A stretch of DNA of 42,091 nt, from assembly GCA_002698225.1 (NCBI GenBank), contig NZWD01000005.1, positions 1 through 42,091 on the forward strand, given 5' to 3'. A model generated the notes under the pieces. It had not been told where the DNA came from, ran no database searches, and saw nothing but the letters and a program-made list of their open reading frames with translations. The stretch's first letter is position 1. Every line of letters starts with the position of its first letter. Positions 3,457 to 36,215 of the stretch are shown here, in pieces. This stretch comes from Methanobacteriota archaeon. Lineage in GTDB: Archaea > Thermoplasmatota > Poseidoniia > Poseidoniales > Thalassarchaeaceae. The position numbers and the translations under genes were made by a program.

Positions 3457-6400
3457 CAGGGCCTGTTCTGCTCCCACCACAAGTGTCCGTATGCGGCCCA
3501 TTGATCCATCGTCCATCCATCGGGTAAGCCAGACAAAGGCAAGGGAGGAGCCCCATCAGGAGAAGGGGGTGGAGCGGATGCTGCGGATTGAGCTAGAGCT
3601 GCTTGGATCTCGTCGTCAGAGACCCCTCCTGTTAGGACCTCTCCTGAGGAAGATGTTTCCAAGGCAGCATCTCTGCGCTCGGAGAGTGAGCCTGAAAGTA
3701 GAGCGGATCCTTCAGGAATAAGTTCCTCATCCGGGTTGATTAAGGCCGATGAGGACCTTCTCATCCTGACTCCATATACGACGCCCGAGGATAAGAGAGT
3801 GAGGAAGATTAGAGCAAGAGTCCAGTCAGGTAGGCCAATTGCCTCAAGGAGCCCCCCCAAGCCCCCTCTAGAAGAGTCTCTAGCCTTGCTGATTCCAAGA
3901 TCATATGAACCGTTTGTGACTGCTATTTCGCTGCCCGATACACCAGTGGAGTTAACGTAGAATATGATGTTAGTTAATCCATTAGAAGCTTCTGAGTCAG
4001 GAGTAATAGTGACGGATACGATTACTGACTCTCCGGAACTTAGTGCATATGATGTCTCATCGACAACGACAGACCAGTCATCGGGTTCCAGAATCTGCAG
4101 GTTTGCCTCACCGGGCGTATTGCCAATATTTGAGATCGTAATTTCCAGAGTCTCGCCTTCAGTACCAATACCTTCAATCGAAATAGATTCACATGTGATT
4201 TTGAGCCATATCGAAGGGACAATTTCGATTGACATATCTGCAGTGTATACAGTTGTCTCGCCACCGGGAGTCCTAGCTTCTATTATGACGGAGACTTGCG
4301 TGTCTAGAAGGCCAATAGGTAAGCTTCCAGGGAGGTCGAGCCCGACCTCAATGGTAGCCTCTTGATTCATATCCATAGGGAATTCCCTGCCAGATAGGAA
4401 TCCGCCTGACCAGCCTTCAGGCAGGGACCCCATGGTCAGGCTGATGTCGAGTTCAATATTCCCAACATTATGAGCATGGATATTGGCAGTTCCGGGAAAT
4501 CCTAGAGCCACAGACATCACTGGATTCCATGACAGATCGAGAGTTGCGATTTCTTGGACGAGTAGACGAGTTGAGTTGGTAATGGTCGGGCCGTCCTCCA
4601 GAGTAGTCCTAATAGTGACCAAGTTGGAGTCTCCCATCTCAGCGGTAAGGGGCACTATCGTAGCAATCGAGATTGTCTTGGAGACCCCCGCTGCGATTGT
4701 GAGTGCCAATTGCTCTGTCTGTATATTCGTCCCCTCAGTTAGTTGAATAGGCCAAGTATTTCGAGAAGAAAAGGCGTTGACTGTGAAATCCATAGGCACA
4801 TTTCCTTCGTTAGAAATTAGTAACTGTGTGACTACGGTATCTCCGTTAAGAACGGGCCTTGGGTCTGCCACGGCTATTGGCCCCAGGGCATCTCCTTCCG
4901 AATCGAATAACTCGGGAGAGAATTCCAGGCTCTCTAGAACCGTCACGGTGGCCTGCTCTGTAGTCTGTAACAAATGGTCAATGACTGAAGTTGTTGTGCA
5001 CTCCACTTCCTGTGTGTATCCAGCTGGGGGATTACCATCTACTGCATTCGGGACTCTGACTCTGATTGGAAGAGGGAGGAACTGCAATCTGCTCAGCGGC
5101 TCTAGCGTAATCTCGGAAGACTGGCTGTTGCCGATGCTTATCGTCCACCTGTCGGAGGACTCGCAGGATACGGTGTACTGGGTCGGCCCATTTCCAGTGT
5201 TCTTGATAGATAGAGAGAATACGGCAAGTTCACCGGGTTCTGCCCCTAGATTCTCAGTACCTGCAACAACTGTGAACAATCCCTCGACCCGCTCGACTAC
5301 GGCACTCAATCTGATGCTATGAGAGACAGTGGGGGCATTCCTATCGAACAGCGTTAGATCAGAGACAAATGTACCTGGTAGAGCATAGATTACATCGGAT
5401 TCGCTACTTAGATCAGTGTCCATATCCGACATATTCAGCGTGACCACAACCCGGTCCCCTTCCTCTCCGAATGGAGCGAGTGTCCATGGGGCTGATTCAT
5501 TGAGTAGTTTCCACCATTCATCTTGTGGCTGATAGAGTACTCCATCATCGCCTAGGAGCTGTACCGGAGAGATGCTCAGGCCAACTGATATCTCAGAGGT
5601 TCCCTCATTCCTCATCTCCAATTCAAACAGAATCCAACTTGCGTCCCTAGGATCAAGGGTCCTGACCATAGCTTGACTTAATTCGGCGGGGTTGGATGGA
5701 ACAGAGCCGTCCTCCATCAAAGGAGTCAGTCTAACTCCGATTTGCGAGACATTCACCTGAATCCTAATCCAGTTGTTGTCTACACCTGAAGTCTCGTCAT
5801 TCAGCTCAGATACATCGGAGTTCGAATCCAGTCTAAGCTCCAACTCGTGCATTCCAGTAGTGGAGAAGGAATGAGGGAAAGATACCGAGTCCAGCAGCCC
5901 CCCTGATAGGGATGGCCTAGCAGAGGTGTGGATTATAGTGCCTGCTGTAAGATCCTCGACCTCAATTGAGTAGGTTCCAGAAGCGGCTGCTGCTTGGTTC
6001 TTCCACGCCGCTTCAATGAGGAGAGTGTCGCCTTGCAATGGACTTGTAACAGAGGTCGATAGAGAGTTTTCGAAGACAGTTAGATCAGGACTTTGGGTCT
6101 CACTGGCAAGTCCAGTGACCACTATGGCGTAGTCCTGAATTGTGCCTCCAGCTTGCCCCACGATAACGGACCATGTTCCAGAGGCCGAGCCGGATGGAAT
6201 ACGGATTCGTTCGATGTTGTTCAGTCGGTCCTCCAAACCTCCAGGGGTGCTGAAGCCCGAGGCGAAGTTGTTACCTAAGTAGGAGGTTCCATCAGGCGCG
6301 ACCACTCTGAGATCGAGATCATTTACTAATCTAGAAGCGCTTTGGTCCGCAACGGCAGAACCTTCCTCGTCATTCCATACGATGGTCACATCCATTCCGT

Positions 6401-9496: not shown

Positions 9497-11041
9497 ATGC
9501 GAGAGGTTACGGCGAAGAGCATGAAGCTCGCACGCGATTTAGATGGTATGCTGGATGAGGCTCTCGAGAGAGATTTGCTCATCAGGATAGGTTGGGGCAG
9601 AGGTGGTGATGAGAAACCCAAGAATGGTGAGATAGGTGCAGCGAGTCATTTACCTAGAGATTCCAGAGTCCTACTGCTGGGAGATTTAGGGCAGTGTGCC
9701 GGAGCCATGAATGATGGCGGTACTTTCACCCTTCAGGGTTCGGCAGAATCTATGCTGGGTGCATTTCAGCGAAATGGCCGTATAGTGGTCGAAAAAGATG
9801 TCGCCGAGCGAGCCGCACACCGAATGTCGGGCGGAGTAATCATCGTACAGGGATCTGCAGGAGATGATGCTGGTGCCGGTATGTCCGACGGGATTCTGAT
9901 AATTCGCGGACATGTTGGCAAGGGGGTCGGTTCGAGTATGTCGGGTGGCACAATTGTGGTCCTCGGATCAGTAGGTACTGAACCGGGATTGGGAATGACG
10001 GGCGGACGCATAGTAATCGCCGGCAGTTGCCCGCCTCCCGGTGAGGGGGCTGCTATGCGCGGTATCGAAGTCGAGGAACTCTCAGAGATGGCGAATCACC
10101 TAGAGCCAATGGGGCTCTCAATTGAGGAGGATGCATTGGTACTGACACGCGCGGATGGTTCTGCATCTCTACCGATTGAGTTACCAGAGCCTTCAGTTGC
10201 CGAGGGTTTTGAGAGCATAGCACTGATTCCAGCATCCTCAGAGAGACTTCCTCTTCACACCTCACTCGACCCTCTGACTCTACTGATGCCTTTGGGGTCT
10301 GAGGAAGGGGGCCTGCTGTTCCCAGTTCCTTGGCTAGTCGAGGACGAGACTGCTGAATCCTGGCAAGGTGGGTTGTGTTCGAAGCAGCCAGCTCTCGTCA
10401 AACACTCACCTAGGGATTGTGATTTGTTGCTAATAGGTGAGGATGAGCTTGTTGGGTGTTCTAAATACCTTAGAGGATGTGCAGGGATAGTGCTAGATTT
10501 AGATGGAATCCCTCCAATGGACGACGCCGAGATTGAGGCGATTTTGGTCTCTCTGACTAGCAAGATGAGTGAGGATTCACTAGTCCTTCTGCGTGACGGG
10601 GTAGATCGGGTTGATCACCTATTCAGATTAGTTGTCGATTTAGATCTTGACGGGGCCGTTATCGATGCCGCATCCCCGGGAGGGAGTAGGGCGGCTGCAG
10701 CATTACCGCGGATTGGTCTCGCTGCTAGAGCGATGAATCTGACTGGGCAGGGTCGTCACCTCCTAATCGAGATGGATGAAGCCCCTGGGGCGGAAGATCT
10801 TCTCATCTGTGTGGCGGCTGGATGCTCAGTACTTGTCGCGCCACCACCTGAGAGTGGGCTAGAGGAGAATTTGCAATGGCTTAGTGCCACCCTTAGAGGC
10901 TGGATGGTTGGACTTGGAGTCGATGGACTAGAGAAGTTGAGTCGTCGAAATCTAAGGGCTCTGGACTACGACACGGCATCAATCAGTGGCTTGAGGCTAA
11001 TTGGCTATGATCGGGCGTTACCTATGTGGTTAGGAAACTGA
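9497..11041 (+). CDS. GXGXG beta-helix fused to a degenerate glutamate-synthase (FMN barrel)-like domain
   Basis: This 514-residue protein starts at an ATG preceded by an unusually strong Shine-Dalgarno (AAGGAGGAG). Residues about 40-195 form a right-handed beta-helix of the GltB alpha-3/FwdC type, with M(S/T)(G/D)G-x-(I/L)-hydrophobic-G turns repeated four times (MSGGVIIVQG, MSDGILIIRG, MSGGTIVVLG, MTGGRIVIAG). From about 290 the protein resembles the synthase domain of archaeal GltB, ending with the family-like LGVDGLEKLSRRNLRALD and GLRLIGYD. The three cysteines that ligate the [3Fe-4S] cluster, and the CPVGIAT region, are absent. Enzymes of the family have the GXGXG domain after the barrel, so the order here is permuted. 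It could be a regulatory or scaffold subunit for a glutamate synthase elsewhere; catalysis is doubtful. pheT follows after 7 nt. Confidence 0.75.
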   Translation: MREVTAKSMKLARDLDGMLDEALERDLLIRIGWGRGGDEKPKNGEIGAASHLPRDSRVLLLGDLGQCAGAMNDGGTFTLQGSAESMLGAFQRNGRIVVEKDVAERAAHRMSGGVIIVQGSAGDDAGAGMSDGILIIRGHVGKGVGSSMSGGTIVVLGSVGTEPGLGMTGGRIVIAGSCPPPGEGAAMRGIEVEELSEMANHLEPMGLSIEEDALVLTRADGSASLPIELPEPSVAEGFESIALIPASSERLPLHTSLDPLTLLMPLGSEEGGLLFPVPWLVEDETAESWQGGLCSKQPALVKHSPRDCDLLLIGEDELVGCSKYLRGCAGIVLDLDGIPPMDDAEIEAILVSLTSKMSEDSLVLLRDGVDRVDHLFRLVVDLDLDGAVIDAASPGGSRAAAALPRIGLAARAMNLTGQGRHLLIEMDEAPGAEDLLICVAAGCSVLVAPPPESGLEENLQWLSATLRGWMVGLGVDGLEKLSRRNLRALDYDTASISGLRLIGYDRALPMWLGN

Positions 11042-11048
11042 GGTTAGC

Positions 11049-12797
11049 ATGCCGACTCTGAATCTGCAGCACTCTCTGCTTGAATACATCCAGAATCTCA
11101 ATGACTCAGAACACTCACCCGAATCTTGGTCTGATTGGCTCCCCGCAATGGGTTGTCCTGTAGAAGGTAATGATGAGGTAGCGATAGAGGTTGAGGTCTT
11201 TCCAGATCGCCCCGATTTACTTAGTCACGAATCTCTAGCAAGGGCGGCTAGAAGTTTCTCTAATGGTCAGATTATAGATGCTGGAATGGAGATAGAGCCC
11301 AGTGGGCTCGAGATGGTTGTGGACCCATCTCTGGAGAATGTCAGGCCTGTGGTTTTGGCTGCAGTTGTTAGAGGGGTTGAAAACGGCGATAATGAGGAGG
11401 GGGTAGGGGCTTTCATTCAGTCACTTATGGATCATCAGGAGAAGCTCCATCTCACCCTTGGTAGGAAACGCGGATTGGCCTCCATAGGGGTGCACGACCT
11501 AGAAGCCGTGAAAGGTCCGTTCACAGTAATCACGGTGCCAGATACCTATTCATTCGTCCCCCTGATGATGGAGCAAAGCATGAGTATCAAGCAGATTCTA
11601 ACTGAGCACCCCAAGGGTGTAGAGTACGCACACCTCATGGATGGCCTCGAATCATTTCCTGTGATTATTGATTCGAATGACGACATCCTGTCTTTTCCTC
11701 CGATTATCAATGGAGATCACACCACGGTATCGCACACTACGAAGGACTTCTTGATTGATGTCACTGGATGGGATATGCGAGCTTGTGAGGCTTGTCTGAT
11801 GCTGGTGTGCCTATCACTGCAGGAGAGGGGAGGCAAGGTGGAGAGCGTCAAGATGACGAGTCATTCGGGAGATGAGATTCATACACCACGTGGCGACCCA
11901 GTCTCGCACCGGGTGCCTGAGAGATTGATTTCTAAGATTCTAGGAGTAGAGCTAAGCCGAGATGAGATTGGAGAATCCCTTCACAAGATGGGGGGGCGAC
12001 TAGTTGAGTCTAGGACGGTAACTGATGGCTCAAACAAGCCAGAAAAATGGGCTGACTGCGTGATTGGCGAGAAGGAACACATCGTCGAGATGCCTCGTTG
12101 GAGGAGCGATATCATGCATCCAATCGATATCGTCGAAGACATAGCCATAGGATTCGGCTATCATAACCTGCCCGAGAGACTCTCGGAAGTGCATCTGGAT
12201 GCGGTTCCTCTAGATTCTTCACATCTTCATCGGCGCATTAGGTCCAGCCTAAGATCGCTGGGAATTCAAGAGACTCAGGGGCTGACCCTGTCAAACGAAA
12301 GGGATCAGTTCGACAGGATTGAATGGGAGCCCGTGGGAGAAGTAGCTACGATATCCAATCCGATCTCAGTCGAGCATACCATCCTTAGACAGAGTATACT
12401 ACCTTCATTGCTTGTCCTTTTATCCTCAAACAGGCATCACGAGTTACCGCAGAGGGTCTACGAACTTAGTGAGGTTGTTAGAGAATCTGTGAATCGGCCG
12501 AGAGTGGCTTGGGCCTGCGCTGAGGTCGGCGGAGGGTTCTCCTCGGCTAAGGGCGTGGTTCAAGCACTTCTCAGAGACCTAGGTGCTGGAATTGATGAGG
12601 TTACTCTAGAGGATACTGTTGATGGACCATGGATTGCAGGGAGAGGTGCTAAAATAATGTTTGAAGGTGTGGAGATTGGATCATTCGGAGAGATCTCGCC
12701 CAGGGTTCTGCACGAATTCGGACTAAGGTCTCCAGTAAATGCGGGCGAGTTCGATGTTGAGTCTCTGAATCGACTAGCCCCTGATTCAATCACTTGA
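11049..12797 (+). CDS. pheT: Phenylalanyl-tRNA synthetase beta subunit
   Basis: This is the beta chain of the (alpha-beta)2 enzyme that charges tRNA-Phe, including the editing activity. At 582 residues it has the archaeal/eukaryotic length rather than the ~790 of bacteria, lacking the bacterial N-terminal tRNA-binding EMAP and C-terminal anticodon domains. Visible markers are EVFPDRPDLLSHESLARAAR near the N-terminus, the B3/B4 editing region in the middle, the B5 domain (HRVPERLISKILGVELSRDEIGESLHKMGG) with VEMPRWRSDIMHPIDIVEDI, and a class-II-like core beginning GFGYHNLPERL. No pheS is in the window. The start follows the fusion gene by 7 nt, so they form one transcript. Confidence 0.95.
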   Translation: MPTLNLQHSLLEYIQNLNDSEHSPESWSDWLPAMGCPVEGNDEVAIEVEVFPDRPDLLSHESLARAARSFSNGQIIDAGMEIEPSGLEMVVDPSLENVRPVVLAAVVRGVENGDNEEGVGAFIQSLMDHQEKLHLTLGRKRGLASIGVHDLEAVKGPFTVITVPDTYSFVPLMMEQSMSIKQILTEHPKGVEYAHLMDGLESFPVIIDSNDDILSFPPIINGDHTTVSHTTKDFLIDVTGWDMRACEACLMLVCLSLQERGGKVESVKMTSHSGDEIHTPRGDPVSHRVPERLISKILGVELSRDEIGESLHKMGGRLVESRTVTDGSNKPEKWADCVIGEKEHIVEMPRWRSDIMHPIDIVEDIAIGFGYHNLPERLSEVHLDAVPLDSSHLHRRIRSSLRSLGIQETQGLTLSNERDQFDRIEWEPVGEVATISNPISVEHTILRQSILPSLLVLLSSNRHHELPQRVYELSEVVRESVNRPRVAWACAEVGGGFSSAKGVVQALLRDLGAGIDEVTLEDTVDGPWIAGRGAKIMFEGVEIGSFGEISPRVLHEFGLRSPVNAGEFDVESLNRLAPDSIT

Positions 12798-21929: not shown

Positions 21930-23714
21930 TCAGAGCCTGTGTTGGCTCTTAGCAAGTCTCCCAGCCCCTTCAGGCCATTCCCACCCCGCTGCAATGGCTC
22001 TCGCCGAACCAATGAGTGAACCATCCTGCATAACTAGGACCTCGTCGCCGACTCGGATGCTGGAATCAGCCGAGATTACATTGCTAGAAAATAGGTCGCC
22101 CTTCCAATCAAGTCCGGAGACTAGCTCTACCTTTGGCAGGGCTTCGGCTTGATGAAGTAGCGGTAAACAGGCCTTGGTGAAGGCGAAACGGCCGGATCGG
22201 GGATTCCACATTGCAATCTGCTCGACTCCATTCAGTATAGTGAAGATTGGTGGTCGCCCCCTTACTGAGGCCCCCTCGAGCCAGGAATCAGTACCGTGCT
22301 GGAATCGAGAGAGGGCCCGTAACTGCGAAAGTCTGTTCTGAGATTTCTTCAGGCCGCGTAACCTTAGATCTGCATCGGCCTCCTCGACGGCTTGATGTAG
22401 TCGCGCAAGCGACTCTGTTGAGCCTGCTGACTCACCCTCTCTAGTGTCAATTACTTCAATACCCTGGACACTGAGTTCAATACCTGAGTGATTAATGATT
22501 CTAGAATATCCTACTCTAGAGCACAGGGAATCGAGCATTTCGCGGATGACGATTAATTCATCCCTATCCCATTCCCCGGTAACCGGGATATCGTAATTGG
22601 CGGCAGGCCAGACTTCCTCCAGTTCCCTAGGAACTAAGCCCAGTGGGGCAGTGACCATGACTTGATGGGCTGCATTTGTAGGAATCGAGCGGATGAATCT
22701 ACGGTGACTCTGAGATGTTCTGTAAGGCTTCACAGCAGAGCATGGCAATAGTACTAGCAAATCCCTCTGATGCTCAGGCGGCATATGTGATTCTGCGACT
22801 CTCTTTCTCCAGTCGTGAATCAATGGGTCATCTCGACTCTGAAAGGTGTGACATCTCAGTTTACGCTCATGCCCGACTACTCTCTCAAGGCCGGATTGGC
22901 CTCCTCCGAATGATCTCATCATCACATCATGCCTGCGGAGCCTCTCCACCGAACGAGGGCTGGAGGTGCTCTGGCGCTCGGCTAACTCTCGCAGTGAGCC
23001 GTCTCTGATTGCGGCCCTAGTAGCGGCAATGGATCGTTCCCATGCTTCGATTTGGACACCCATACTAGCTGATTCGGACAAAGTCTCCTCAGGATACCTA
23101 GGGCCGTCCTCGGTAAGTATCACTCCTAGTGAAGCCGCTCTGCGTGAACGCGCTAGGTCGAACAGATCCACACCCATCCATGATAGTAAAGCACAATTGT
23201 CTGGACCTCCAATTCCCGGAGTCCAGAGCAATGAATTCGGGAAACTCGTCCTCAAGGTGTACAATGCCGTGATAAGTGCCCCTGGACGATGGGAGAGTTG
23301 TATCGAGTCCACTAGGCAGACCACAGAAGGTTCGAGTTTCGTATCATTCAGCATCTCGTCATGGTGCATAGACTGCCAGGATACGGCTAGCAATTGGTCG
23401 CCTTTGCTGAACTCACCAGAGTCTGATTCAGAGAGGCTTGGAGGGAGTACTAGACCCTCTGTGGAAATCCAAGAATCCTCAGCATCGAATGGGACGCATA
23501 GATTTCCTCTTGTGGCCAAGGTAACTGAGGCGGGTAGATTTTCCGAATCCCTAGTGGACATGAAGGGGGAGAGTGCAAGGGGTAATTCGGAATCTTTCGA
23601 GTCCGTCACAAGTCCAGGAGTCCAAGATGAAGGTTGGTTCCGATCTCCAAGTTGCATTACCCGTGCGAGACGCTGTCTTGCGACCGTTGCACGGGCTAAT
23701 GGACGCTCCGTCAT
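21930..23714 (-). CDS. arcS: Archaeosine synthase alpha subunit (ArcS/TgtA2)
   Basis: This enzyme modifies preQ0 at position 15 of archaeal tRNA on the way to archaeosine. In characterised species ArcS adds lysine to the nitrile, and a radical-SAM partner (RaSEA) then makes the amidine. The protein is about 594 residues. It has a TGT-like N-terminal domain that lacks obvious TGT catalytic signatures, the diagnostic LLPCSAVKPYRTSQSH motif in the middle, and a C-terminal PUA RNA-binding domain (VGDEVLVMQDGSLIGSARAIA). The frame is open 23 codons further upstream to 23783, which would run into the divergent gene. The ATG at 23714 (MTERPLARATVARQRL) is preferred. rps15 lies 68 nt downstream. No RaSEA gene is visible here. 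Confidence 0.88.
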   Translation of the reverse strand: MTERPLARATVARQRLARVMQLGDRNQPSSWTPGLVTDSKDSELPLALSPFMSTRDSENLPASVTLATRGNLCVPFDAEDSWISTEGLVLPPSLSESDSGEFSKGDQLLAVSWQSMHHDEMLNDTKLEPSVVCLVDSIQLSHRPGALITALYTLRTSFPNSLLWTPGIGGPDNCALLSWMGVDLFDLARSRRAASLGVILTEDGPRYPEETLSESASMGVQIEAWERSIAATRAAIRDGSLRELAERQSTSSPRSVERLRRHDVMMRSFGGGQSGLERVVGHERKLRCHTFQSRDDPLIHDWRKRVAESHMPPEHQRDLLVLLPCSAVKPYRTSQSHRRFIRSIPTNAAHQVMVTAPLGLVPRELEEVWPAANYDIPVTGEWDRDELIVIREMLDSLCSRVGYSRIINHSGIELSVQGIEVIDTREGESAGSTESLARLHQAVEEADADLRLRGLKKSQNRLSQLRALSRFQHGTDSWLEGASVRGRPPIFTILNGVEQIAMWNPRSGRFAFTKACLPLLHQAEALPKVELVSGLDWKGDLFSSNVISADSSIRVGDEVLVMQDGSLIGSARAIAAGWEWPEGAGRLAKSQHRL

Positions 23715-23774
23715 ACGCGTCGCACTGACGCGGTTCGCTTGAAGGATTCTAAGGGAGGCGCGCCTCGGCCGGAC

Positions 23775-25925
23775 ATGGTGCACGCACGGGCAGGACTGTT
23801 TTTGCTCTTGGTAATCGTGTCGGTTGGCACACCTGAGGCATTTGCCGAAGACGAGAACAGAGTGGTTGTGCTATCTGATGAATTCGAAACCGATGGGCCT
23901 GTATGGATATCTGTATCATGCTTGCAAATTAGTTGCCCAGGTATGGAGCTGGTAGTGTGGTACGACGGCTCTGAACACAGGCACCAGGACCCGCATCTTG
24001 TAGAGTGGTCTGGTTGGGTCCAAGGGATTTTTTCATGGGAGGTAGTTGCCGAAGACGATATTGGAGGGGGCGACCTACTTTTTGATTCAATACTCAGCCA
24101 TATGGAAGAGTGGACTGAACACGAAGATCTTCCTGATATCGTCCCTCCTCCCGGTAGTCAAGATGAGTATGTGAGTATCAATACCTCATCTCCGTGCCGA
24201 TTGCACTACTGTGGTGCATTGGATATCATATCAGAGGGAGTGTTGTTTGTCGGTTCTCTCGAGAATCAGAGCGACAAGGATGCTGTGATGATTGTAGGCG
24301 ATCTAGGAGATGTTCTTCTGCTAAACTCACATAGAGGTCCGAATGCTACCACAATAGAAATCTGGCACAGGTCAGATGAGTCGAAATCTCTAGTGGATTC
24401 AATTGAGGTTGCACATATGCCTCACTACTTCGAGTACCCGGCTCAAGGAGAATTATGGATTCGTGTAGTCCATTCTACAGAGTCAGGTTACTCACCCTAT
24501 GAGTTTGAAATTATTCGGTATGATGACGACATAGAGGCTCCCGGAGGAGGTGAATTGAGCAATCCTTGGACTCATGGCGAGCCAATGCCGTTCCAAGGCG
24601 AATCATCACTAATCTACCATGGTCATCTGGCAGCGTCGGATTCACTAGGGGACTCGTTGCTCATCGAATCTGGACCCAAGATGCAATTGGAGCCGTTTTG
24701 TACCTTCACCAGTCCTGTCAATGTGAGTATCACTCTTCACCAGATTGATGGGACGAGTTATACAGTCGAGAGTGGTTGCGAGAATGTCTTTGAGACTTCA
24801 ATACAGACTATTTCGGTTGAGTTTGGATTGACGACACAGGGCACCAACGCAGCTTGGGCAGTCATGCTGAGGTCACTGAGCCCAGGAGATGGAAGTCTGA
24901 TTGGAGACGCTCCCAATATGATTTGGGAGCACGGCAGTATGGATACGAGATGGCAGGTTCTGAACCTAGAGGCAACGGTAATCACAGGAACTCTGGATGT
25001 TTCTGACACCACCGATTTCTACGCATTCTCAGTGACAGAAGAGAATGGATCCTATGTCAGGGTTCAGAGAATAGGCAATTCTCCCGGTTTATTCACCCTG
25101 ATGACTCTGGATCAGGAGACCGGAGAGGTGGTGAATTTCACAGACGGCTCGATGATGATTTTACCCTCTGGTGTCCATGCGTTGAGAATTGACTGGGAAC
25201 AGGGTATGGGACAGGGAGAGGATGATCCGGGCGAGTACCAGTTTTCTCTACCATACAACGGACCATATGTGCCCGAAGAGGTTGAGTTTGTCGACCTCTC
25301 TCACAAAGCTCGTGGTTTCTACATGCTAGCGGGCCTACTGCTGCTCACTCCGCTCGCAATGGTAATCTGGTGGAATCGGGATGCAATATTCAGAGGGGCG
25401 CCTCTAGCAGCAGACATTCAGGAGCATGAGAGGCGCAGACTCAGGAACCTGAGACAGAGAGTATCTCAGGCACTAATCTCGAGAGATGTTGATCAAGCGG
25501 AAATTGAGTATTCACTCAGACAACTGGGGGATAGCCCATGGTCGGCTGTAGTAGATGACTGGGGTGAGCCAATCATCATGCACTTGACAGAGAAAGTTGA
25601 GATTTGCGTGTGGAGAGTGGCTGAGTCTGCATCTAGTCTACTAATCGGAATCAGGATTGAGAGTATGCCTTGGGAACTGGCAGCCATCAGAGTCCACGCG
25701 CCCGAAGGTTCGGGCGTGGGAATCTCCTCTGTCTCTCCCAACAGGATGTATCAAGATGACGAGGTTTTCCTAGATACTCTACCTGCAGGCAGTAAGACAT
25801 TCGTTGGTATCGAGCTGGAAGGCTCCCCTACTACGATTGGATTCCATCTGTCTGGCTTAGTTGGAGGGGAACCCTTGGCTGCAGTCCCCAACAAAGCGCT
25901 GGACTGGGGCACAGGAGATGATTAG
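23775..25925 (+). CDS. Surface protein with one membrane span and a large cytoplasmic domain
   Basis: This ~716-residue protein is unrecognised. The ATG at 23775 gives a clean signal peptide ([20 protein letters not shown], ending at EAFA). A TTG 12 codons earlier (23739) is an alternative, but it puts charged residues before the signal. The ectodomain of about 490 residues is acidic and beta-rich with scattered cysteines ([18 protein letters not shown]). It contains two pre-peptidase-type beta-sandwich-like stretches ([14 protein letters not shown]). A single span near 512-532 leads to a ~180-residue cytoplasmic part: a basic helix ([21 protein letters not shown]), then a beta-rich domain. 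This domain size is more than an anchor needs. It is divergent from arcS and ends convergently with dnaJ (4-nt overlap). Confidence 0.8.
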
Positions 25926-27917: not shown

Positions 27918-28427
27918 ATGGCGGACATAGAAATCTCAACTGTACTGTACCCTCACGAGGACCCAGCTAGGGTTGTCGAATCGGTAAGGGAGTTATTTCC
28001 GGACTGGATGCCCAATGCTGAGCCTGAAAACTCTGCGTTTCCGCAGAGGAGGCTTGCAGTCGTCTTAGAGGGCGTATCAGATTCTATAGAAACTCTACTT
28101 GAATCGGCTCGCGATCAGAGAATCCTAGACACTGCATTAGATGCCATGTCAATGCGGCTTGAGGGAGATTACACCGAATTCTCAATCTCACGGCAGGCCT
28201 CAATGGCAGGAAAGTTGTCCTTCGTTCTTGAAGAAAGGACATTGGGGGGCGAAATCACAGTGAGCATTCAGATGGCAGAACTAGCTGACTGGTTGCAAAG
28301 GATGACTTGGCATCCGGGAAGAGACTCAATCCCTAGGAGCATTGGTGATGGTTTGAGCATGTCAGAGCAGGGAGAGCCGGTCGAATGGTTCGACAAGAGA
28401 GGCAACCGAACTCTGGGTGAAGACTAG
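27918..28427 (+). CDS. UPF0201-family protein (archaeal RNA-binding-like domain)
   Basis: This 169-residue protein matches the archaeal UPF0201 pattern as known from memory: IEISTVLYPHEDPARVVESV at the N-terminus, a predicted RL5-like alpha/beta fold, RDQRILDTALDAM where the family has RQRILDTAR, FSISRQASMAGKLSFVLEE, and a closing LADWLQRMTW helix. The function is not established; the fold resembles ribosomal protein L5 and suggests RNA binding. The last ~35 residues are an extra hydrophilic tail. The gene is divergent from the zinc-ribbon gene across 58 bp and overlaps the next gene's stop by 4 nt on the opposite strand. Confidence 0.8.
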   Translation: MADIEISTVLYPHEDPARVVESVRELFPDWMPNAEPENSAFPQRRLAVVLEGVSDSIETLLESARDQRILDTALDAMSMRLEGDYTEFSISRQASMAGKLSFVLEERTLGGEITVSIQMAELADWLQRMTWHPGRDSIPRSIGDGLSMSEQGEPVEWFDKRGNRTLGED

Positions 28428-29410
28428 TTCGGAATTCCTTCTACCAACCATCTAGAAATAATTGGAAGGTCGGCCGGCAGCCACTTCACTTCCATCAGTT
28501 CCTCCTTTGTGAGCCACCTTGATTCGTCATGCTCGTTTAGACTGATTTGATTTGGATCGATCGTTCCACAGTTCCAAATCTGTAGCCGTACTGTACGATC
28601 GTCGTAATCAAATATTGACGATTCTACTAAGTGATACGGGCTGATAGAAACTCCAATCTCCTCTTCGAGTTCTCTCGAAAGAGCTTGCGAGGGAGACTCT
28701 CCCTCATCCACTTTACCTCCGGGAAACTCCCACCATCCTGCCCATGCGTCTTGACTAGGCCTCTTGCATGCTAGAATCCTACCTTGCTCATCGAATAGCA
28801 GAGCAGCAACAACATCGTATGTCGGCCTCAATATCATAGCGGATGCAATTAGCATAACTTTCTCCACTTGTTTTTCAACAGAGATTTCTTCCCCAGGTGG
28901 GAGGTGAACGAAGAGAGTGGGGATGTCGGAGATGTTGGCCTCATCGAGCGCATGCAGTGTCCTGTAGAATGTCTCATTACAGACATAGCCACCCGCATCT
29001 GAACTCCAGACAACCAACTCGTCGTGCTCAAACTCCTCGTCTAGGATATGTATCGGAGCTGTGGTCCCGAGGTTTTGCGGGGCATCGGAAACGACCTTGT
29101 CCGAATTCAAGAAACGCCCAGAGTTATCTGGCTCTGTCATGGAAATCATATTCCTAGCCACTCTTTCCAGACTAATCTCCTTCCTATTGGCGGCTAGGCC
29201 GAGATGGATGATTCCCCTGAAAACTTCGCCATCTCGAATCCTGTCAGCGACCACATGCGAGCCCTTCTCATCGACGCTTAGCAATTGGGTCTCCACCCTT
29301 ATGCCGCCTACCTCCTGTCTCCCTATCTCATCCAGGACCTCTTGAGAGATGTTTTTGGAATGATTAGAGAATGGAGGGAATGCGGTAATCAGTAGTCTAC
29401 CCTCAGACAC
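28424..29410 (-). CDS. Pyroglutamyl-peptidase I (C15) fused to a MutT-type Nudix hydrolase
   Basis: This 328-residue protein carries two enzymes in one chain. Residues 1-~192 are a pyrrolidone-carboxylate peptidase with the full triad: Glu82 in ISLERVARN, Cys144 in GGYVCNETFY and His169 in LFVHLPP. Residues ~196-328 are a Nudix domain with a perfect Nudix box (G232, E238, then R246-E-L-E-E-E-I-G-V254) preceded by WWEFPGGK, typical of MutT-like 8-oxo-dGTP or CTP pyrophosphatases. The first removes N-terminal pyroglutamate from peptides; the second hydrolyses oxidised or unwanted nucleotides. Both active sites look intact. The frame begins with GTG at 29410 and a TATA-like TATAGAAAA lies upstream near 29447. 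No separate stop or start lies between the domains. Confidence 0.9.
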   Translation of the reverse strand: MSEGRLLITAFPPFSNHSKNISQEVLDEIGRQEVGGIRVETQLLSVDEKGSHVVADRIRDGEVFRGIIHLGLAANRKEISLERVARNMISMTEPDNSGRFLNSDKVVSDAPQNLGTTAPIHILDEEFEHDELVVWSSDAGGYVCNETFYRTLHALDEANISDIPTLFVHLPPGEEISVEKQVEKVMLIASAMILRPTYDVVAALLFDEQGRILACKRPSQDAWAGWWEFPGGKVDEGESPSQALSRELEEEIGVSISPYHLVESSIFDYDDRTVRLQIWNCGTIDPNQISLNEHDESRWLTKEELMEVKWLPADLPIISRWLVEGIPN

Positions 29411-29496
29411 GGGACTGCGAGCGAGACTGTGTTGTTCGGCTTTTCTATACTCGGAGTGGCGTCAGGTTGATGCGTCCGTGACCTAAGGAGTGTGTG

Positions 29497-29829
29497 ATGG
29501 CAGACGAGTATGTCGTCAGTATAGCCTCGGACGAGGAGCCAGATTCAGGTAGCACATTGGGTGCGATGGGCGTGATTTGGTACGAACTCAGTGGAGGTAT
29601 AGGGCCATGGGGTGCACTGCGCCCACTGGTGGCAGTTGTTCTCGCACTGGTTCCATTCCTATTCTTAGGCCAACATTTCAACCGACAGCACCGCAAGGCC
29701 CTAGGATCATTTCTGATTCAACTCCCTCTGATACTATCTGTAGTGATGTGGCCTGTGCTGTTCATTTGGTCTATAGCCGATGCTTGGTGGGTGTCGAGTC
29801 GGATTGTGGCTAAGTCTGAGAGTGGTTAG
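29497..29829 (+). CDS. Small two-span membrane protein
   Basis: This is a 110-residue protein of unrecognised family. An acidic N-terminus of ~20 residues is followed by two hydrophobic segments (about 42-60 and 72-97), separated by a short basic loop (FNRQHRKALG). The second contains WSIADAWWVS, reminiscent of the end of TM2-like small membrane proteins. The ATG at 29497 is chosen because AAGGAG lies 6 nt ahead. A GTG directly before it (29494) would add one residue. The gene is convergent with the acidic protein gene, whose stop lies immediately beyond. Confidence 0.7.
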   Translation: MADEYVVSIASDEEPDSGSTLGAMGVIWYELSGGIGPWGALRPLVAVVLALVPFLFLGQHFNRQHRKALGSFLIQLPLILSVVMWPVLFIWSIADAWWVSSRIVAKSESG

Positions 29830-30321
29830 TCAGAAACTCTCAGGGAATTCCATTGGGCTGAATAGATGCCCGGGCGAACCTGCTTGGGAGAGTTGAGTTC
29901 TAGCCAAACTCTCCCACTCTCTGAGCAAGGTGAGCGTGGGTACGAAGGGTAGCTGGCTCTCATTGAGAATGCTCCTGATTAGGGTATCAAGAATGTCCAT
30001 CCTATCCTCATCTAGGCTACCAAGCAGCCTATCAAGAGGATATGATTCGATGGTTGGTGCGTCGGGATTGGAATCGATTGGCCATGCTTCGACTAGATTT
30101 TGCGGTAATGACTCGTCCTCGGTTTCAGCTGCCTCAAGTAGTGAATCTAGAATTATACGGATGTACTTCGACAGAACCAGTGAGACTTCGATTACAGGCA
30201 TGCTGAATTGGTTTACGAAGCTCACCATGTTCTCCTGAAGGAAAAGAAGTCTCTCCTCAACTGGCTCTTCCGGGGAAGGCACCCTATCTCCCTCCATGGG
30301 TGAGCGTGGGAGTCGTGGCAC
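29830..30321 (-). CDS. Acidic, mostly helical hypothetical protein
   Basis: This 163-residue product from GTG 30321 (155 from the ATG at 30297, which may be the true start) has no recognised family. It is acidic, lacks cysteines and membrane segments, and is predicted to be mainly alpha-helical, with Leu/Ile-rich amphipathic stretches (LSKYIRIILDSLLEAAE, LDTLIRSILNE). The gene begins 6 nt after the stop of the giant calcium-repeat protein and is on the same strand, so the two are probably one transcript. It might be a cytoplasmic partner, but nothing in the sequence shows it. Confidence 0.6.
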   Translation of the reverse strand: MPRLPRSPMEGDRVPSPEEPVEERLLFLQENMVSFVNQFSMPVIEVSLVLSKYIRIILDSLLEAAETEDESLPQNLVEAWPIDSNPDAPTIESYPLDRLLGSLDEDRMDILDTLIRSILNESQLPFVPTLTLLREWESLARTQLSQAGSPGHLFSPMEFPESF

Positions 30322-30327
30322 AAGAAC

Positions 30328-33300
30328 TCAACTAGTGGTCCGGTCGTCATATCTGATTGGCGAACCGCTATTGCCCCTTACACCATCCAGCATATCATCC
30401 TCAATCTCGAAGAAATCGTTGAGCCAATCGCCATCAGTATCCCAGTTCGTCGGATCAGTTCCATCAGCCACCTGATCTCCGTCAATATCAATCAACCACC
30501 ATCCGTAGACATATTCTCCAAGTCCAGTGTTTGGCAGGTGGTACTGGTCGCCTGCGAATCTCTGATACTCATCCGTCCATGCCCCATTGACTAAGACGAC
30601 ATCGTTACTGGAATCCACATCCTCATAGTCAATGTCGTTGTCATCGATGATGAGCGCGTAGAGCATGTCTGCATCGTTAAACCTGTACATCCGGAAGTAG
30701 TTCGTACTCAGGGCTGCACTTCCCGAGCATGTCCCTAGGAGAGATTCTCGCAACTGCCACCATTCCTGTACTATGTCTCCCGAGCAATCGAACAATCCTG
30801 CCCCGCGAACGAGTGAAGGGGAAGCGAGTGATGCATTGACGAGACCATAGTACTCCTGGAAGTTGTTGTATGGGACATATACGCAACTACCGCTGGAACA
30901 ATCCCACGATCCGTCGTTATCGGCGTCCTGTCCGGAGTCTGAGGAGTCGGTCGCGTCGTGTGTGAACCAAGTCCAAGTCAACTCCGGCCTAGCGATGTTG
31001 CTGCCAGTGATGTTTACTGGCTTCCAGTTCGTAGCCGAAATCTGCTGCCAAATTACTTCGATTTTTAGATAGGATGACCAGTTGTCATTAGCTTCGTTCC
31101 AGCCTCTGTAGTACTCATAAAAGTCTGGCATCATATCGCCATCGGTATCATTGTCAAGTGGGTTGGTTCCATACTTGAATACCTCTCTGCCATCAGACAG
31201 ATTAGTATCTTGTACATAGTCGATGACGATACCGCTCTGCATGATTGGCTTCATCACCATGGAGTCATCATCAGAGTCTGAGTCTAGAGGGTGGGTCCCG
31301 TTCTCGAACTCCATCAGGTTGCTGAAGTACAGGTCTTGGAAGCCCTGGCCTATCTGCTGTTCAACCGGTGCTGGAGAGAATTCTCTCCCTTCCCAAGTGC
31401 CCTGATCTGCTGGGATATCTTCCCATGACCTGTCATACCAACCATCTGCATCGGGATCGTATTCGGTGTCCAATGGGTTGATTGGATTCATCGACCAACG
31501 ATAGGAGTTGACAGGAAGGAACTCGCCGTAGATAGAATAACAGAACTCCCAGCCGTCAGGCATTCCGTCTCTGTCTGAGTCCTCATCGGTCGGATCGCTG
31601 ACTCCGGCGATGCTGTAGTTGAATGTATCCGGATCAATCTCGTTGATGAGTCCAGCGCGCTCGGCGGAGACTAGGCTCTTGGTAGAGAACAGAACATACA
31701 ACTGTGCGAATGCGGCCTCATACGCTAGGCCATTCTCCTCTATCTGCGCCGTTACAGCATCGGCACCATATGAGACCAGTCCCGTACCGTTCGGAATAGT
31801 ATCGACTGCTGAGCGTTTTCCATATACTCTGGCATCGTACTCGGCCAGATTGTCGAAAGACTCGGAGTCTGAGATGTAACCGTCGCCGTTACAGTCGAAC
31901 GAGTCGCCATCGGAGTCAGCGTGAATGTCACTGTCAGTAAGCGGATTCATCTCCCAACTGTTCTCCTCAAGGTTCCATTCGGTGAACCAGTACTCGTAAC
32001 CGTCGCTCATCCCGTCGCGGTCCGTGTCCTCAGCATTGGGGTCAGAAGCACCCAGCAGCGCCGAAACTACTGGTTGGGCGGTTCCACCATCCTGCCAGTC
32101 CTCAAACTGTGCTATCGCCAACTCGGCTCTGCCTTCCTTGTTGAATAAAATTCTGAATACCCTATTCACGGCCTCATCAGGATCAATCTGCTCTGCTTCC
32201 TCCCACATTCTAGGGGCATCTGGAGGAGAGAGTCCGCCGTTGGCCGGGTTGTTGAAGGTCAGATTAAGCTCAACTAAGTCAGTCAGTCCGTCTCGATCAG
32301 AGTCATAGTTGCCATCTCCAGCCACCAACGGGTTCAGTGTCCAGACTTCATCGGTCGCGTTCCATCTGGTGAATATCAATTCAATTCCGTCCAAGAGGCC
32401 GTCGTTGTCAGTATCTGGGTTGTTGGGATCAGCAGTTCTACCAGTCTTATTCACTTGCTCATCGGTTAGGAAAGTACCGAATGAGGCTGATGACTGAGCG
32501 GAAAGCCAAGGTGATGCTAGGAGTTCCCCTCCTACACTCAAGAGATAGAACTGAGGAACGGTAATCAAATCATCAGTCTCACTCAGATTGGAATCGATGA
32601 CATTGTACTCCTCCCAATTGTTCATCCCGTCTCTATCGGGGTCTCCTGTCCTGTCCGTCTCGTCGACTGGATTGAGAGTCCATCCGCCATCGAACAGACT
32701 CCATCTGGCGAAGTAGAATTCCCAACCATCAGGCATACCATCTCTGTCTGAATCAGCAGAAAGAGGGTTTGCTGAACCAACATCTTGGGATGTGGTTCCA
32801 TTGACAAGGCTGCTGTAGGCGAGGCTGGTTCTGTCTCCGAATGAGTCTTCTGCGGAATCCATCCAAGTGTCATTCCACAGTAAAGTAGTGAAGTTCTCGG
32901 GATATAACTCACCAGCAGCGGTCTGATCACCATACAGAATACTCGACTTCAGGTGATACTCCAACCAATTCACTAGACTCTCCTCAAGGGAGAGGTTGCC
33001 GTCCCGATCGATGTCGTAGCCATCTCCGTCCGGGTTGTTCAGGTAGTCTGAGCCGTTTAGCGGGTTGATTCCTGAGTTGTCCTTGTTCCAAGAACAGGCA
33101 TAGCGAGCCTCCCAGCCGTCGGGCAAAGAGTCACCATCGGAATCGATGTTGTTGGGATCTGTAGCAGACCAGTTGGCGGCTGCCTCAGAGGTCTCTCCAT
33201 GAGTAGGAAGGCCCTCTCTGAGCACAGTCTCCAGCAGATTCGACCAAGAGTACTCGCATAGATTACTGAGTCCATCGCCATCTGCGTCTTCGTCCTTGTC

Positions 33301-36039
33301 TGATGGGTCGCGAGGGTCGAGAGTCCAGAGATTGCCTCCATTGTAGACATCTCCAATCCACCTGCGATGCTCCATCTCCCACCCGTCTGGCATACCATCA
33401 CCATCGGTATCTGGATTGGTGGGGTCGGTAGGCCCATCTGTCCCGCCACCTGCTCCTGAACCCAACCAGCCCTCAAGATGGACCTGTTCGGCCAAATCTC
33501 CGGTATCTTCGTCACATAGATAATCATCATTGAGGTAATGGCAATCGAAGTTCGTCGACTCGGCGAACCATCCCCAATACTCCTCTCCATCCGTCAGCCC
33601 ATCGCCGTCGGTATCCGTGTCCCTAGGGTCGCTTCCGTTGAAGCCGCCCTCAGTAGAAGAGACGAATCTGTACTCATCTAGGTTGGTCCAATCTCGGTTG
33701 AGAGTGAATCCATCAGCTGAAGAGAAATACACCCCATCAGCATCAGCGTCACGGTCCCTGTCATAGGGATCTGTGGGGTCCAATCCATAGACAAACTCCC
33801 AACCATCGGGCATCCCATCTAGGTCCGAGTCAACCGAAGTAGGGTCGATTGGCATGATGTTCATGTATCGCCCGGGTGAGATTCCCGCGAATACCCAGAT
33901 GTTAGACCCTTGATTTAGAGTGGTCAAAGAGGTAACTAGGCCTGGAATTCGTGTCTGATTGAGGCCCAGATCAAGGATTCCTGCATATCCTCCCTCCAAG
34001 CACCAAGTACCGTCCCTAGAGCCTAGGTAGATCATGCCATCCATTGGAAGAATGGAGTGGATGTCATTAGCTCCGTTCTGCCAGCGTTCTATGTTGTACA
34101 TGCGCTCGGTGTCGAAAGCGGTTCGTGGCATTTGAATCAGTAATTGCAAATCTAAGAGGTGTAAACCTCCTGCAGTTCCCACCCAGACTCCGGCGACTTC
34201 CTCTACTTGCCCCGTGGCATCAAGTGGGCCTGCCTTGACGAGCGCATTGACTATCGCAGACTTGGAGATGTTCAGAAGGTCGGCCCGTTGTACGAACTCC
34301 TCGGCATTCTCACGGTCGAATACCCACCAGGGGTTTCCTATCGAAGTCGAGCCATCGGTGGTATTCCATGCAATCAGGCCCGCATCAGTGCCTATGAGTA
34401 GAAGTGGCCCTCGACCGAACATAGGGACATGGGTGACATCCCTAGCATTGGCATCGGCATTGGTGAGAATCTCCCTCATTGCCTCATTAAGGACAGGTGT
34501 AGATAGTTCGGCTGAGTCTTCACTGAGGCTCAGGGTCGCGGTCCAAGCCGAGGAGTTGCCGAACACAATCAAGTCGAGGTCTCCGCTTCCTGTGTCAAGT
34601 TGGGCAATCTCCTCGATTGGCCCTAATTCAGATTGTGAGAATGTTTCCATCACAGGGAGACCGTTCTCTAGAGATACAAAGTGGAGTCCTACATTGCTGC
34701 CGATGAGTAGGTAATCTGAATCTCCCGAAGACCATCTGAGCATGGTGTTCATCTCAAGGCCTGAAGGCAGAGTGTGCAGTACTGCAGTGCCGCCAAACGG
34801 GTCGATGGCGGTGATTCCGTATTTCGAGCCAACTAGGAGCCTATCTCTAGATTGGTCGGGAATCACAGTATGCACGGCACCGTCAACCAAGCCCGGAGTT
34901 GTGGACTGGTCGAATGAAACGAAAGATTCGTCTTCCGAGGTAATCTGGTTGCCCCTCAGTCCCGGAGTCACCCAAGCCCCCTGATCGTGATGAATCATAT
35001 ATTCCTCGTAATTGCTGAATGCTTCGCCCCAATGTACCGTGGCAGTAGAAATGTCCGGGACGATGAAACCATCTCGGTCTAGGTCCCATCCGTCTAAATC
35101 AGTGTCCTCAATCGCGTCACTGGAGTTCCTCGGGTCGAGACCATAGTGCACCTCCCAACCATCCGGAATACCATCACCGGGGACTGCTAGGCCAACGGCG
35201 AGAACCTCCGACCAAGTGTAGTAATCGGAATCTGGTTCGGTAGGGTCGCTTCCGAGCCAACCATCGTCGCCGGTGGCCCTCTCCACAGTCTTCTGACATG
35301 AGTCTCTGGTGAGTCCGGGAATCTCGCCAGCGCACCATAGCCCATCTCTCTCAGTAATCCAGTCATCGGGAGTCCCATACAGGTACTCCTCCGAATTGGT
35401 ATATCTCTCTCCCAAGTCGATGATTCCGTCTCTGTTGACATCGAAGCCATCGCCACACCCAAAGGTGAAATCCTCGCAACTGTCGATATCCTCGGAAGAA
35501 TCAGAGGGATCTAATGGGTCGAACCATAGACATTGCCAAGCGTTCGTGGCGTTTTGGTATCCCAAGCCGCCCTCTGTGCACATGTGAATCTCATATCCGT
35601 CAGGTAGTCCATCTCCATCTGTGTCAGCGACTCTGGGGTCGAGATACTCTCTTAATCCAGAATCGGTGAGATGAGGGGGTTTTCCTGTCAGTGATAAGCG
35701 GTCGAAGCATGTATCCAGTGTGTAGGGCCAGCAGAACTCCAGCAGAGCACTGGCTCCATCACTATCGTGATCCGACATGTTGTCAGTCGAGTTCATTGGA
35801 TCGAGGCCATGGACTGAGATTACTCCCGTGCTACTCTCAACTAGCCTAGTGCTTCCGAATATTGACTCGTGGAGATCCGGTATTTGATCACCATCCTCGT
35901 CTGTTACAGGAGGCCCTCCTCTGTCTGCAGTAATTGGATCGGTGGACGAAACAGACGATTGCGGCCGGGTCTGGGAGATGAAGGTCATACTACCTAGGAT
36001 GAGCAGTGTCAGGAGCAAGGCTGTCTGCTTGCGGCGCAT
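30328..36039 (-). CDS. Giant secreted protein with Asp-rich calcium-type repeats and an internal beta-propeller-like region
   Basis: It is about 1903 residues from the ATG at 36039, which follows AGGTGA by 5 nt and begins a clean signal peptide (MRRKQTALLLTLLILGSM). In-frame starts at 36108 (ATG) and 36114 (GTG) would add 23-25 residues. About fourteen motifs of the type D(S/T)D-x-DGMPDGWE are spread along the chain, each usually followed ~20-30 residues later by a NPxDxxD...DxDGDG unit. These resemble thrombospondin type-3 and dockerin calcium loops. A segment near 380-730 lacks them and shows WD/PQQ-like strands (DRLLVGSKYGITAIDPFGG, LLLIGTDAGLIAWNTTDG), suggesting a beta-propeller. No C-terminal membrane span is seen, so the protein is probably released or held by partners. 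A role in adhesion or polymer capture is inferred. Confidence 0.88.
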   Translation of the reverse strand: MRRKQTALLLTLLILGSMTFISQTRPQSSVSSTDPITADRGGPPVTDEDGDQIPDLHESIFGSTRLVESSTGVISVHGLDPMNSTDNMSDHDSDGASALLEFCWPYTLDTCFDRLSLTGKPPHLTDSGLREYLDPRVADTDGDGLPDGYEIHMCTEGGLGYQNATNAWQCLWFDPLDPSDSSEDIDSCEDFTFGCGDGFDVNRDGIIDLGERYTNSEEYLYGTPDDWITERDGLWCAGEIPGLTRDSCQKTVERATGDDGWLGSDPTEPDSDYYTWSEVLAVGLAVPGDGIPDGWEVHYGLDPRNSSDAIEDTDLDGWDLDRDGFIVPDISTATVHWGEAFSNYEEYMIHHDQGAWVTPGLRGNQITSEDESFVSFDQSTTPGLVDGAVHTVIPDQSRDRLLVGSKYGITAIDPFGGTAVLHTLPSGLEMNTMLRWSSGDSDYLLIGSNVGLHFVSLENGLPVMETFSQSELGPIEEIAQLDTGSGDLDLIVFGNSSAWTATLSLSEDSAELSTPVLNEAMREILTNADANARDVTHVPMFGRGPLLLIGTDAGLIAWNTTDGSTSIGNPWWVFDRENAEEFVQRADLLNISKSAIVNALVKAGPLDATGQVEEVAGVWVGTAGGLHLLDLQLLIQMPRTAFDTERMYNIERWQNGANDIHSILPMDGMIYLGSRDGTWCLEGGYAGILDLGLNQTRIPGLVTSLTTLNQGSNIWVFAGISPGRYMNIMPIDPTSVDSDLDGMPDGWEFVYGLDPTDPYDRDRDADADGVYFSSADGFTLNRDWTNLDEYRFVSSTEGGFNGSDPRDTDTDGDGLTDGEEYWGWFAESTNFDCHYLNDDYLCDEDTGDLAEQVHLEGWLGSGAGGGTDGPTDPTNPDTDGDGMPDGWEMEHRRWIGDVYNGGNLWTLDPRDPSDKDEDADGDGLSNLCEYSWSNLLETVLREGLPTHGETSEAAANWSATDPNNIDSDGDSLPDGWEARYACSWNKDNSGINPLNGSDYLNNPDGDGYDIDRDGNLSLEESLVNWLEYHLKSSILYGDQTAAGELYPENFTTLLWNDTWMDSAEDSFGDRTSLAYSSLVNGTTSQDVGSANPLSADSDRDGMPDGWEFYFARWSLFDGGWTLNPVDETDRTGDPDRDGMNNWEEYNVIDSNLSETDDLITVPQFYLLSVGGELLASPWLSAQSSASFGTFLTDEQVNKTGRTADPNNPDTDNDGLLDGIELIFTRWNATDEVWTLNPLVAGDGNYDSDRDGLTDLVELNLTFNNPANGGLSPPDAPRMWEEAEQIDPDEAVNRVFRILFNKEGRAELAIAQFEDWQDGGTAQPVVSALLGASDPNAEDTDRDGMSDGYEYWFTEWNLEENSWEMNPLTDSDIHADSDGDSFDCNGDGYISDSESFDNLAEYDARVYGKRSAVDTIPNGTGLVSYGADAVTAQIEENGLAYEAAFAQLYVLFSTKSLVSAERAGLINEIDPDTFNYSIAGVSDPTDEDSDRDGMPDGWEFCYSIYGEFLPVNSYRWSMNPINPLDTEYDPDADGWYDRSWEDIPADQGTWEGREFSPAPVEQQIGQGFQDLYFSNLMEFENGTHPLDSDSDDDSMVMKPIMQSGIVIDYVQDTNLSDGREVFKYGTNPLDNDTDGDMMPDFYEYYRGWNEANDNWSSYLKIEVIWQQISATNWKPVNITGSNIARPELTWTWFTHDATDSSDSGQDADNDGSWDCSSGSCVYVPYNNFQEYYGLVNASLASPSLVRGAGLFDCSGDIVQEWWQLRESLLGTCSGSAALSTNYFRMYRFNDADMLYALIIDDNDIDYEDVDSSNDVVLVNGAWTDEYQRFAGDQYHLPNTGLGEYVYGWWLIDIDGDQVADGTDPTNWDTDGDWLNDFFEIEDDMLDGVRGNSGSPIRYDDRTTS

Positions 36040-36215
36040 GGCTTCACCTACTGTTGTACTCAGCGCCGTTGGATGACTTATCATGCTGATGGAGCGCCGT
36101 TCGGACATGTTCACAGGTGCTTATGCCGACGGTGATGCCGTCGTGAGTCGAAAACACGCTTGATTGTGTCATTCTCATGGATTGGTTCAAGGAGGTTCAG
36201 TGTCGTCTCTATCAT

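Follow-up and report, generated by a model that had tools for sequence, protein, structure and literature searches.

A pyroglutamyl peptidase fused to a Nudix hydrolase in the Marine Group II archaeal order Ca. Poseidoniales

We identified a gene that joins a pyroglutamyl peptidase (MEROPS family C15) to a Nudix hydrolase in a 42,091-nucleotide stretch of DNA from an archaeon of the Ca. Thalassarchaeaceae (hereafter the window). Fused genes of this kind are carried by the Ca. Thalassarchaeaceae and the Ca. Poseidoniaceae, i.e., by the order Ca. Poseidoniales (Marine Group II archaea). The join is genuine, and neither half is unusual within the known family to which it belongs. Marine Group II comprises the most abundant planktonic archaea of the surface ocean and has no cultured representative (PMC6461757); as the fusion occurs at a fixed locus in almost the whole order, it offers a stable, testable trait of the peptide and nucleotide economy of these organisms.

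This order-wide combination of two well-known enzymes is apparently undescribed. The preliminary description of the window did not know it as a described enzyme, and we likewise found no description of a C15-Nudix fusion in the open-access literature, where the terms for the two families occurred together only in a proteomic study of Erysipelothrix, and where three genome papers on Marine Group II leave the gene unmentioned in their main text. The nearest precedent in kind appears to be Arabidopsis NUDX3, which, according to the papers citing the original work, carries Nudix hydrolase and dipeptidyl peptidase III activities in one polypeptide (Karacic et al. 2017, cited in PMC5389931 and PMC12516527). 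However, the peptidase of this plant protein, as described there, is a metallopeptidase of family M49, whereas that of the archaeal fusion is a cysteine peptidase of family C15. We therefore rejected a NUDX3-type assignment, and, going by that account, we read the two fusions as being of unrelated origin.

The gene, its two domains and its locus

The gene lies at positions 28424..29410 and encodes 328 residues, from a GTG start at 29410 to a stop ending at 28424; these coordinates and this chain length had been given before and hold, with the strand being the minus one. The GTG start is supported because several relatives have an ATG at the equivalent residue. The C15 domain is N-terminal and the Nudix domain C-terminal, with no linker domain between them, and Pfam finds both families far above their cut-offs, in agreement with the two-domain chain that had been proposed.

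The Peptidase_C15 (pyroglutamyl peptidase I) domain (28868..29398, minus strand, residues 5-181) matches PF01470 with an E-value of 1.8e-19 and 71 bits (cut-off 22.7), and its assignment also draws on an own-genome match, conservation and fold. Glu82, Cys144 and His169 stand at the residues predicted for them and align with those of known C15 enzymes; the S-x-D-x-G-x-Y-x-C-N motif is kept as well, as is the aromatic pair F11/F14, which in known C15 enzymes forms the ring pocket. The solved pyroglutamyl peptidases I (Thermus 2ebj, Deinococcus 5z48 and Pyrococcus furiosus 1iof) share with it the fold (TMt about 0.8), the Glu-Cys-His set, the ring-pocket aromatics and the DN-x-G motif at about 25-31% identity. 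However, these enzymes are stand-alone, whereas the chain of the fusion runs from the last C15 helix into the Nudix domain, and the CNET and DN-x-GR motifs are lineage-specific. The C15 half scores 26-90 bits on the NCBIfam C15 equivalog and subfamily models, well under their cut-offs (81 bits against 202 for TIGR00504; 90 against 199 for PRK13197), and by these scores it is a divergent superfamily member outside the curated equivalogs.

The Nudix domain (28460..28813, minus strand, residues 200-316) matches PF00293 with an E-value of 2.8e-21 and 76 bits (cut-off 21.1), with further backing from an own-genome match and from the fold. Its Nudix box (232-251) is intact, and perfect as had been stated, starting at G232 and reading G-x5-E238-x7-R246-E247-x2-E250-E251. 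It shares the box, WEF-x-GGK, the Asp at the position of NudG Asp118 (here Asp314) and a C-terminal PAD-x-P with NudG/Orf135 and MutT-type (d)NTP pyrophosphohydrolases (2rrk, 5x1x, 3r03). Those enzymes are stand-alone or joined to other domains (e.g., in the PRK08999 family), whereas the Nudix domain of the fusion is C-terminal to a peptidase and, unlike them, scores under the curated equivalog cut-offs, namely those for MutT (PRK10776, 80.3 against 148 bits; TIGR00586, 77.9 against 97.9) and for NudG (PRK10546, 89.9 against 156 bits). We take Asn119 of E. coli MutT and Asp118 of NudG to be base-recognition positions; Asp314 corresponds to an Asp in NudG and to an Asn in the MutT of 4v14. However, Asp is found at this position in 66 of 73 stand-alone homologues as well as in 64 of 65 fused proteins, and being so common it is not diagnostic; we thus rejected the idea of reading substrate specificity from it. 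The residues seen in the Nudix half recur in many enzymes of MutT type and do not single out one substrate. The earlier suggestion, by which this half as a MutT would clean oxidised nucleotides, claims too specific a role, given the scores under the MutT cut-offs, the Asp rather than Asn at residue 314, and E. coli NudG/Orf135 as the nearest solved relative by sequence. NudG/Orf135 hydrolyses CTP, dCTP, 5-methyl-dCTP and 2-OH-dATP (PMC5158307, PMC5389931), with 5-methyl-dCTP and 2-OH-dATP among its best substrates (PMC5158307).

An AlphaFold2 model built with ten aligned relatives had a mean pLDDT of 90.3 and a pTM of 0.77. Foldseek matched it to the solved C15 enzymes 5z48 and 2ebj (TMt 0.82-0.83 over about 200 columns), and to the solved MutT/Nudix proteins 3grn, 3r03, 3ees and 2rrk over about 130 columns. 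In the model, residues 178-193 form the final helix of the C15 half and pass to the opening strand of the Nudix half (197-206) with almost no linker.

Except where contigs end early, the gene order is identical in 36 of 36 loci, namely, DnaJ (minus), a zinc-ribbon protein (minus), a PF01877 RNA-binding protein (plus), the fusion (minus), a small membrane protein (plus) and a hypothetical protein (minus). In the window the PF01877/PRK00447-like RNA-binding protein (27918..28427, plus strand) is convergent with the fusion gene, whose stop shares a 4-base overlap with it, and the small predicted membrane protein (29494..29829, plus strand) is divergent; both are conserved neighbours and not part of the enzyme, nor is the conserved hypothetical protein (29830..30321, minus strand). 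Since both flanking genes are on the opposite strand, the fusion gene is probably transcribed alone, and we rejected an operon partner on the same ground. The neighbours, being RNA-binding, DnaJ, zinc-ribbon, membrane and unfamiliar proteins, suggest no pathway. The products of 29494-29829 and 29830-30321 match no family above cut-off, and in several relatives they are more conserved than the fusion (50-67% identity). Within the window's family this syntenic block also takes in a 1928-residue protein with many D-x-D-x-DG-rich, calcium-binding-like repeats (30328-36114, minus strand). Elsewhere in the window, 21930-23783 (minus strand) encodes an archaeosine synthase alpha (ArcS)-like protein that scores under the equivalog cut-off.

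Distribution, conservation and origin of the fusion

In a first set of 60 relatives every genome gave some match, mostly full-length. We then turned to 390 genomes sampled from the phylum, 128 of which belong to the two families of Ca. Poseidoniales. A strong match was present in 120 of these 128, and it spanned both domains apart from seven genes with C15 alone and a few copies that are broken or lie at a contig edge, so that the search for the same domain order in other genomes, which the preliminary description had proposed, returned one open frame with both domains in most genomes of the order. The 65 distinct full-length fused proteins come from both families, with identity down to about 30%, and 64 of them match every active-site motif tested; the active sites, described earlier as intact, are thus conserved as well. 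Among the 46 members aligned first, E82, D95, N96, G98, R99, N145, E146 and H169 are invariant, as are E238, R246, E247, E250 and E251 of the Nudix box, and C144 is present in 45, the remaining sequence having an ambiguous base there. Conservation of the active-site residues suggests that both halves are under purifying selection as enzymes.

A mis-assembly, a frameshift or a lost stop might in principle have joined two separate genes, and a few broken copies do exist: an in-frame TAA inside the Nudix half at 1501-2481 of locus L009 (genome G004), a gene split in two frames in L088 (G363), and a frameshift in L108. These copies may reflect true decay or sequencing error. However, a single open frame is found in most of the 128 genomes, which were assembled separately, at identities as low as 30%, and the gene order around it is fixed in all 36 loci compared, which refutes an artefact and leaves it a negligible probability. 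A stop between the halves, by which relatives might have betrayed two separate genes, is mostly absent; the exceptions are the C15-only genes of two genera and the broken or contig-edge copies. All of these exceptions fall within the fused clade and are derived.

Outside the order, seven sampled genomes of the same class gave no match, and other Thermoplasmatota have C15 and Nudix as separate proteins only. Two long frames (G065 and G066) considered as an independent fusion elsewhere in the phylum were rejected, as they contain an open frame upstream of C15 and not a Nudix domain. In bacteria, we found the fusion in 0 of 399 and 0 of 397 genomes of two phyla (796 in all) at an E-value of 1e-27, at which a divergent fusion could be missed. 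Among the best 80 loci reported for a collection spanning 84,980 species, no fusion fell outside Marine Group II, a result that may miss rare or divergent ones; no place in phage and plasmid records covered 80% of the fusion query; and the matches listed in viral contigs were to the Nudix half, with no C15 in their loci. One locus of Arthrobacter sp. SO3 (L168) carries a gene of MutT type at about 6001-6354 and, some 4 kb away, a C15 gene standing alone at about 10615-11262. As this is one locus in about 145, we took it as chance and rejected the proximity of the two kinds of gene in bacterial genomes as a functional link.

In the C15 tree all sequences from Poseidoniales group with one another and are separated from those of other Thermoplasmatota (support 97/98). 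In the Nudix tree the fused domains make up a single group, which lies among stand-alone MutT-type proteins from bacteria (support 90/95); NudG falls with other bacteria in this tree and is not sister to the fused group. On the C15 tree the fused label has to change four times, three of these changes being forced by well-supported branches. One fusion event in the ancestor of Ca. Poseidoniales, with later losses, fits these trees best, and the single origin is well supported by them.

Loss of the Nudix half or of the whole gene

The C15 half occurs alone at the same locus in genus g7 (G028, G212, G334 and G367) and in part of genus g3 (G014, G034 and G316). These stand-alone proteins of about 200-223 residues keep the Glu, Cys and His residues and the DN-x-GR and CNET motifs intact. 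In two other genomes of g7 (G018 and G390) and two of genus g6 (G017 and G027), the whole gene is cleanly missing, and the RNA-binding and membrane-protein genes are adjacent and intact (loci L255-L258). We saw no unbroken gene at this locus with the Nudix half alone; single-domain relatives, which had been suggested as a check, were thus found here for the N-terminal half and not for the C-terminal one.

Since the Nudix half has been lost in situ while the C15 active site is complete, the two activities are separable, and the peptidase looks like the core of the enzyme with the Nudix half as an optional partner. Such a loss of one half is a natural experiment on the mutual need of the two activities, and the loss pattern is the strongest evidence here on mechanism. 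The separability argues against both an obligatory two-step reaction and obligatory nucleotide control, although genera that keep both halves may still couple them. It likewise makes less likely the single linked pathway, of damage repair or of peptide and nucleotide metabolism, that the preliminary description had put forward, as two genera keep C15 after losing Nudix in situ.

We regard as rather unlikely a coupled enzyme peculiar to Marine Group II, in which the nucleotide chemistry of the Nudix half gates C15 cleavage or acts in sequence with it, through a nucleotide signal or on a nucleotide-linked peptide. The Nudix half might control the peptidase, with binding or hydrolysis of a nucleotide (e.g., a stress or starvation signal) switching C15 so that peptide salvage tracks the nucleotide state. 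The predicted passage of helix 178-193 into the strand at 197 with almost no linker would suit such control, as would the retention of the joined form throughout the order. However, the C15 proteins that lack Nudix in two genera retain all their active-site residues, and the Nudix half has kept its catalytic glutamates without variation, although a domain that only senses would have no need of hydrolysis; we thus give control by the Nudix half a low probability. Alternatively, a single compound, either a peptide linked to a nucleotide or a pyroglutamyl conjugate, might be processed at both sites in succession, as the conservation of two active sites in one chain across the order could suggest. 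This we consider very improbable, since the Nudix half has been lost in situ in two genera with C15 complete, and no recognisable biosynthetic or nucleotidyl-transfer gene is found in the neighbourhood of the fusion. We know of no substrate of this kind.

Possible functions of the two halves

The reading that we hold to be reasonably probable is that of a two-headed salvage and housecleaning enzyme, whose sites act independently and whose fusion serves joint expression. The C15 half, with Cys144 as the nucleophile, His169 as the base and Glu82, would cut N-terminal pyroglutamate from peptides in the cytosol; peptides with a cyclised N-terminal glutamine would thereby be unblocked, and the aminopeptidases of a peptide-eating archaeon would finish them. 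The Nudix half would be a NudG/MutT-type metal-dependent pyrophosphohydrolase that converts a (deoxy)nucleoside triphosphate to the monophosphate and pyrophosphate. Its substrate may be a damaged or a pyrimidine nucleotide rather than strictly 8-oxo-dGTP, which, judging from the sequence, is possible and not favoured. The single ancestral fusion would then provide joint expression of the two sites, not channelling. The salvage reading draws on the clear matches of both halves to their families in sequence and fold, on the conserved active sites, on the separability of the halves, on NudG/Orf135 as the closest solved Nudix relative, and on the lifestyle of the order, which is described as proteolytic and as relying on amino acids from outside (PMC6461757, PMC6336850). 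On the other hand, the order-wide retention of the fusion suggests a benefit of joining beyond that expected of independent sites.

The salvage reading is also in keeping with a check of 14 genomes, of which 13 have exactly one C15 domain and the other has none; in those 13 the fusion is thus the sole pyroglutamyl peptidase. Neither PxpC (PF02626) nor Hydantoinase_B (PF02538) was found in 14 genomes of the order, including G000 and G037, while both searches gave matches in control genomes. This counts against the salvage reading, as the released pyroglutamate would have no known route that we could see, and a nearly universal pyroglutamyl peptidase without either 5-oxoprolinase subunit family tested raises the question of the fate of pyroglutamate. 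The same result, together with the scores well under the cut-offs of the curated C15 models, speaks for an alternative in which the C15 half is no pyroglutamyl peptidase in vivo and acts instead on another lactam or on a gamma-glutamyl substrate. However, the triad, F11/F14 and the S-x-D-x-G-x-Y-x-C-N motif are all kept, and the top matches of the C15 half are the Thermus and Deinococcus enzymes, one of which was solved with pyroglutamate bound; we therefore think another substrate improbable and retain pyroglutamyl peptides as the putative substrates of the salvage enzyme.

As to oxidised guanine more generally, a MutY-like glycosylase with an open frame of about 330-350 residues was not found in 10 of the genomes and is present in G031, G037, G038 and G047, and the 8-oxoguanine system may be patchy in the order.
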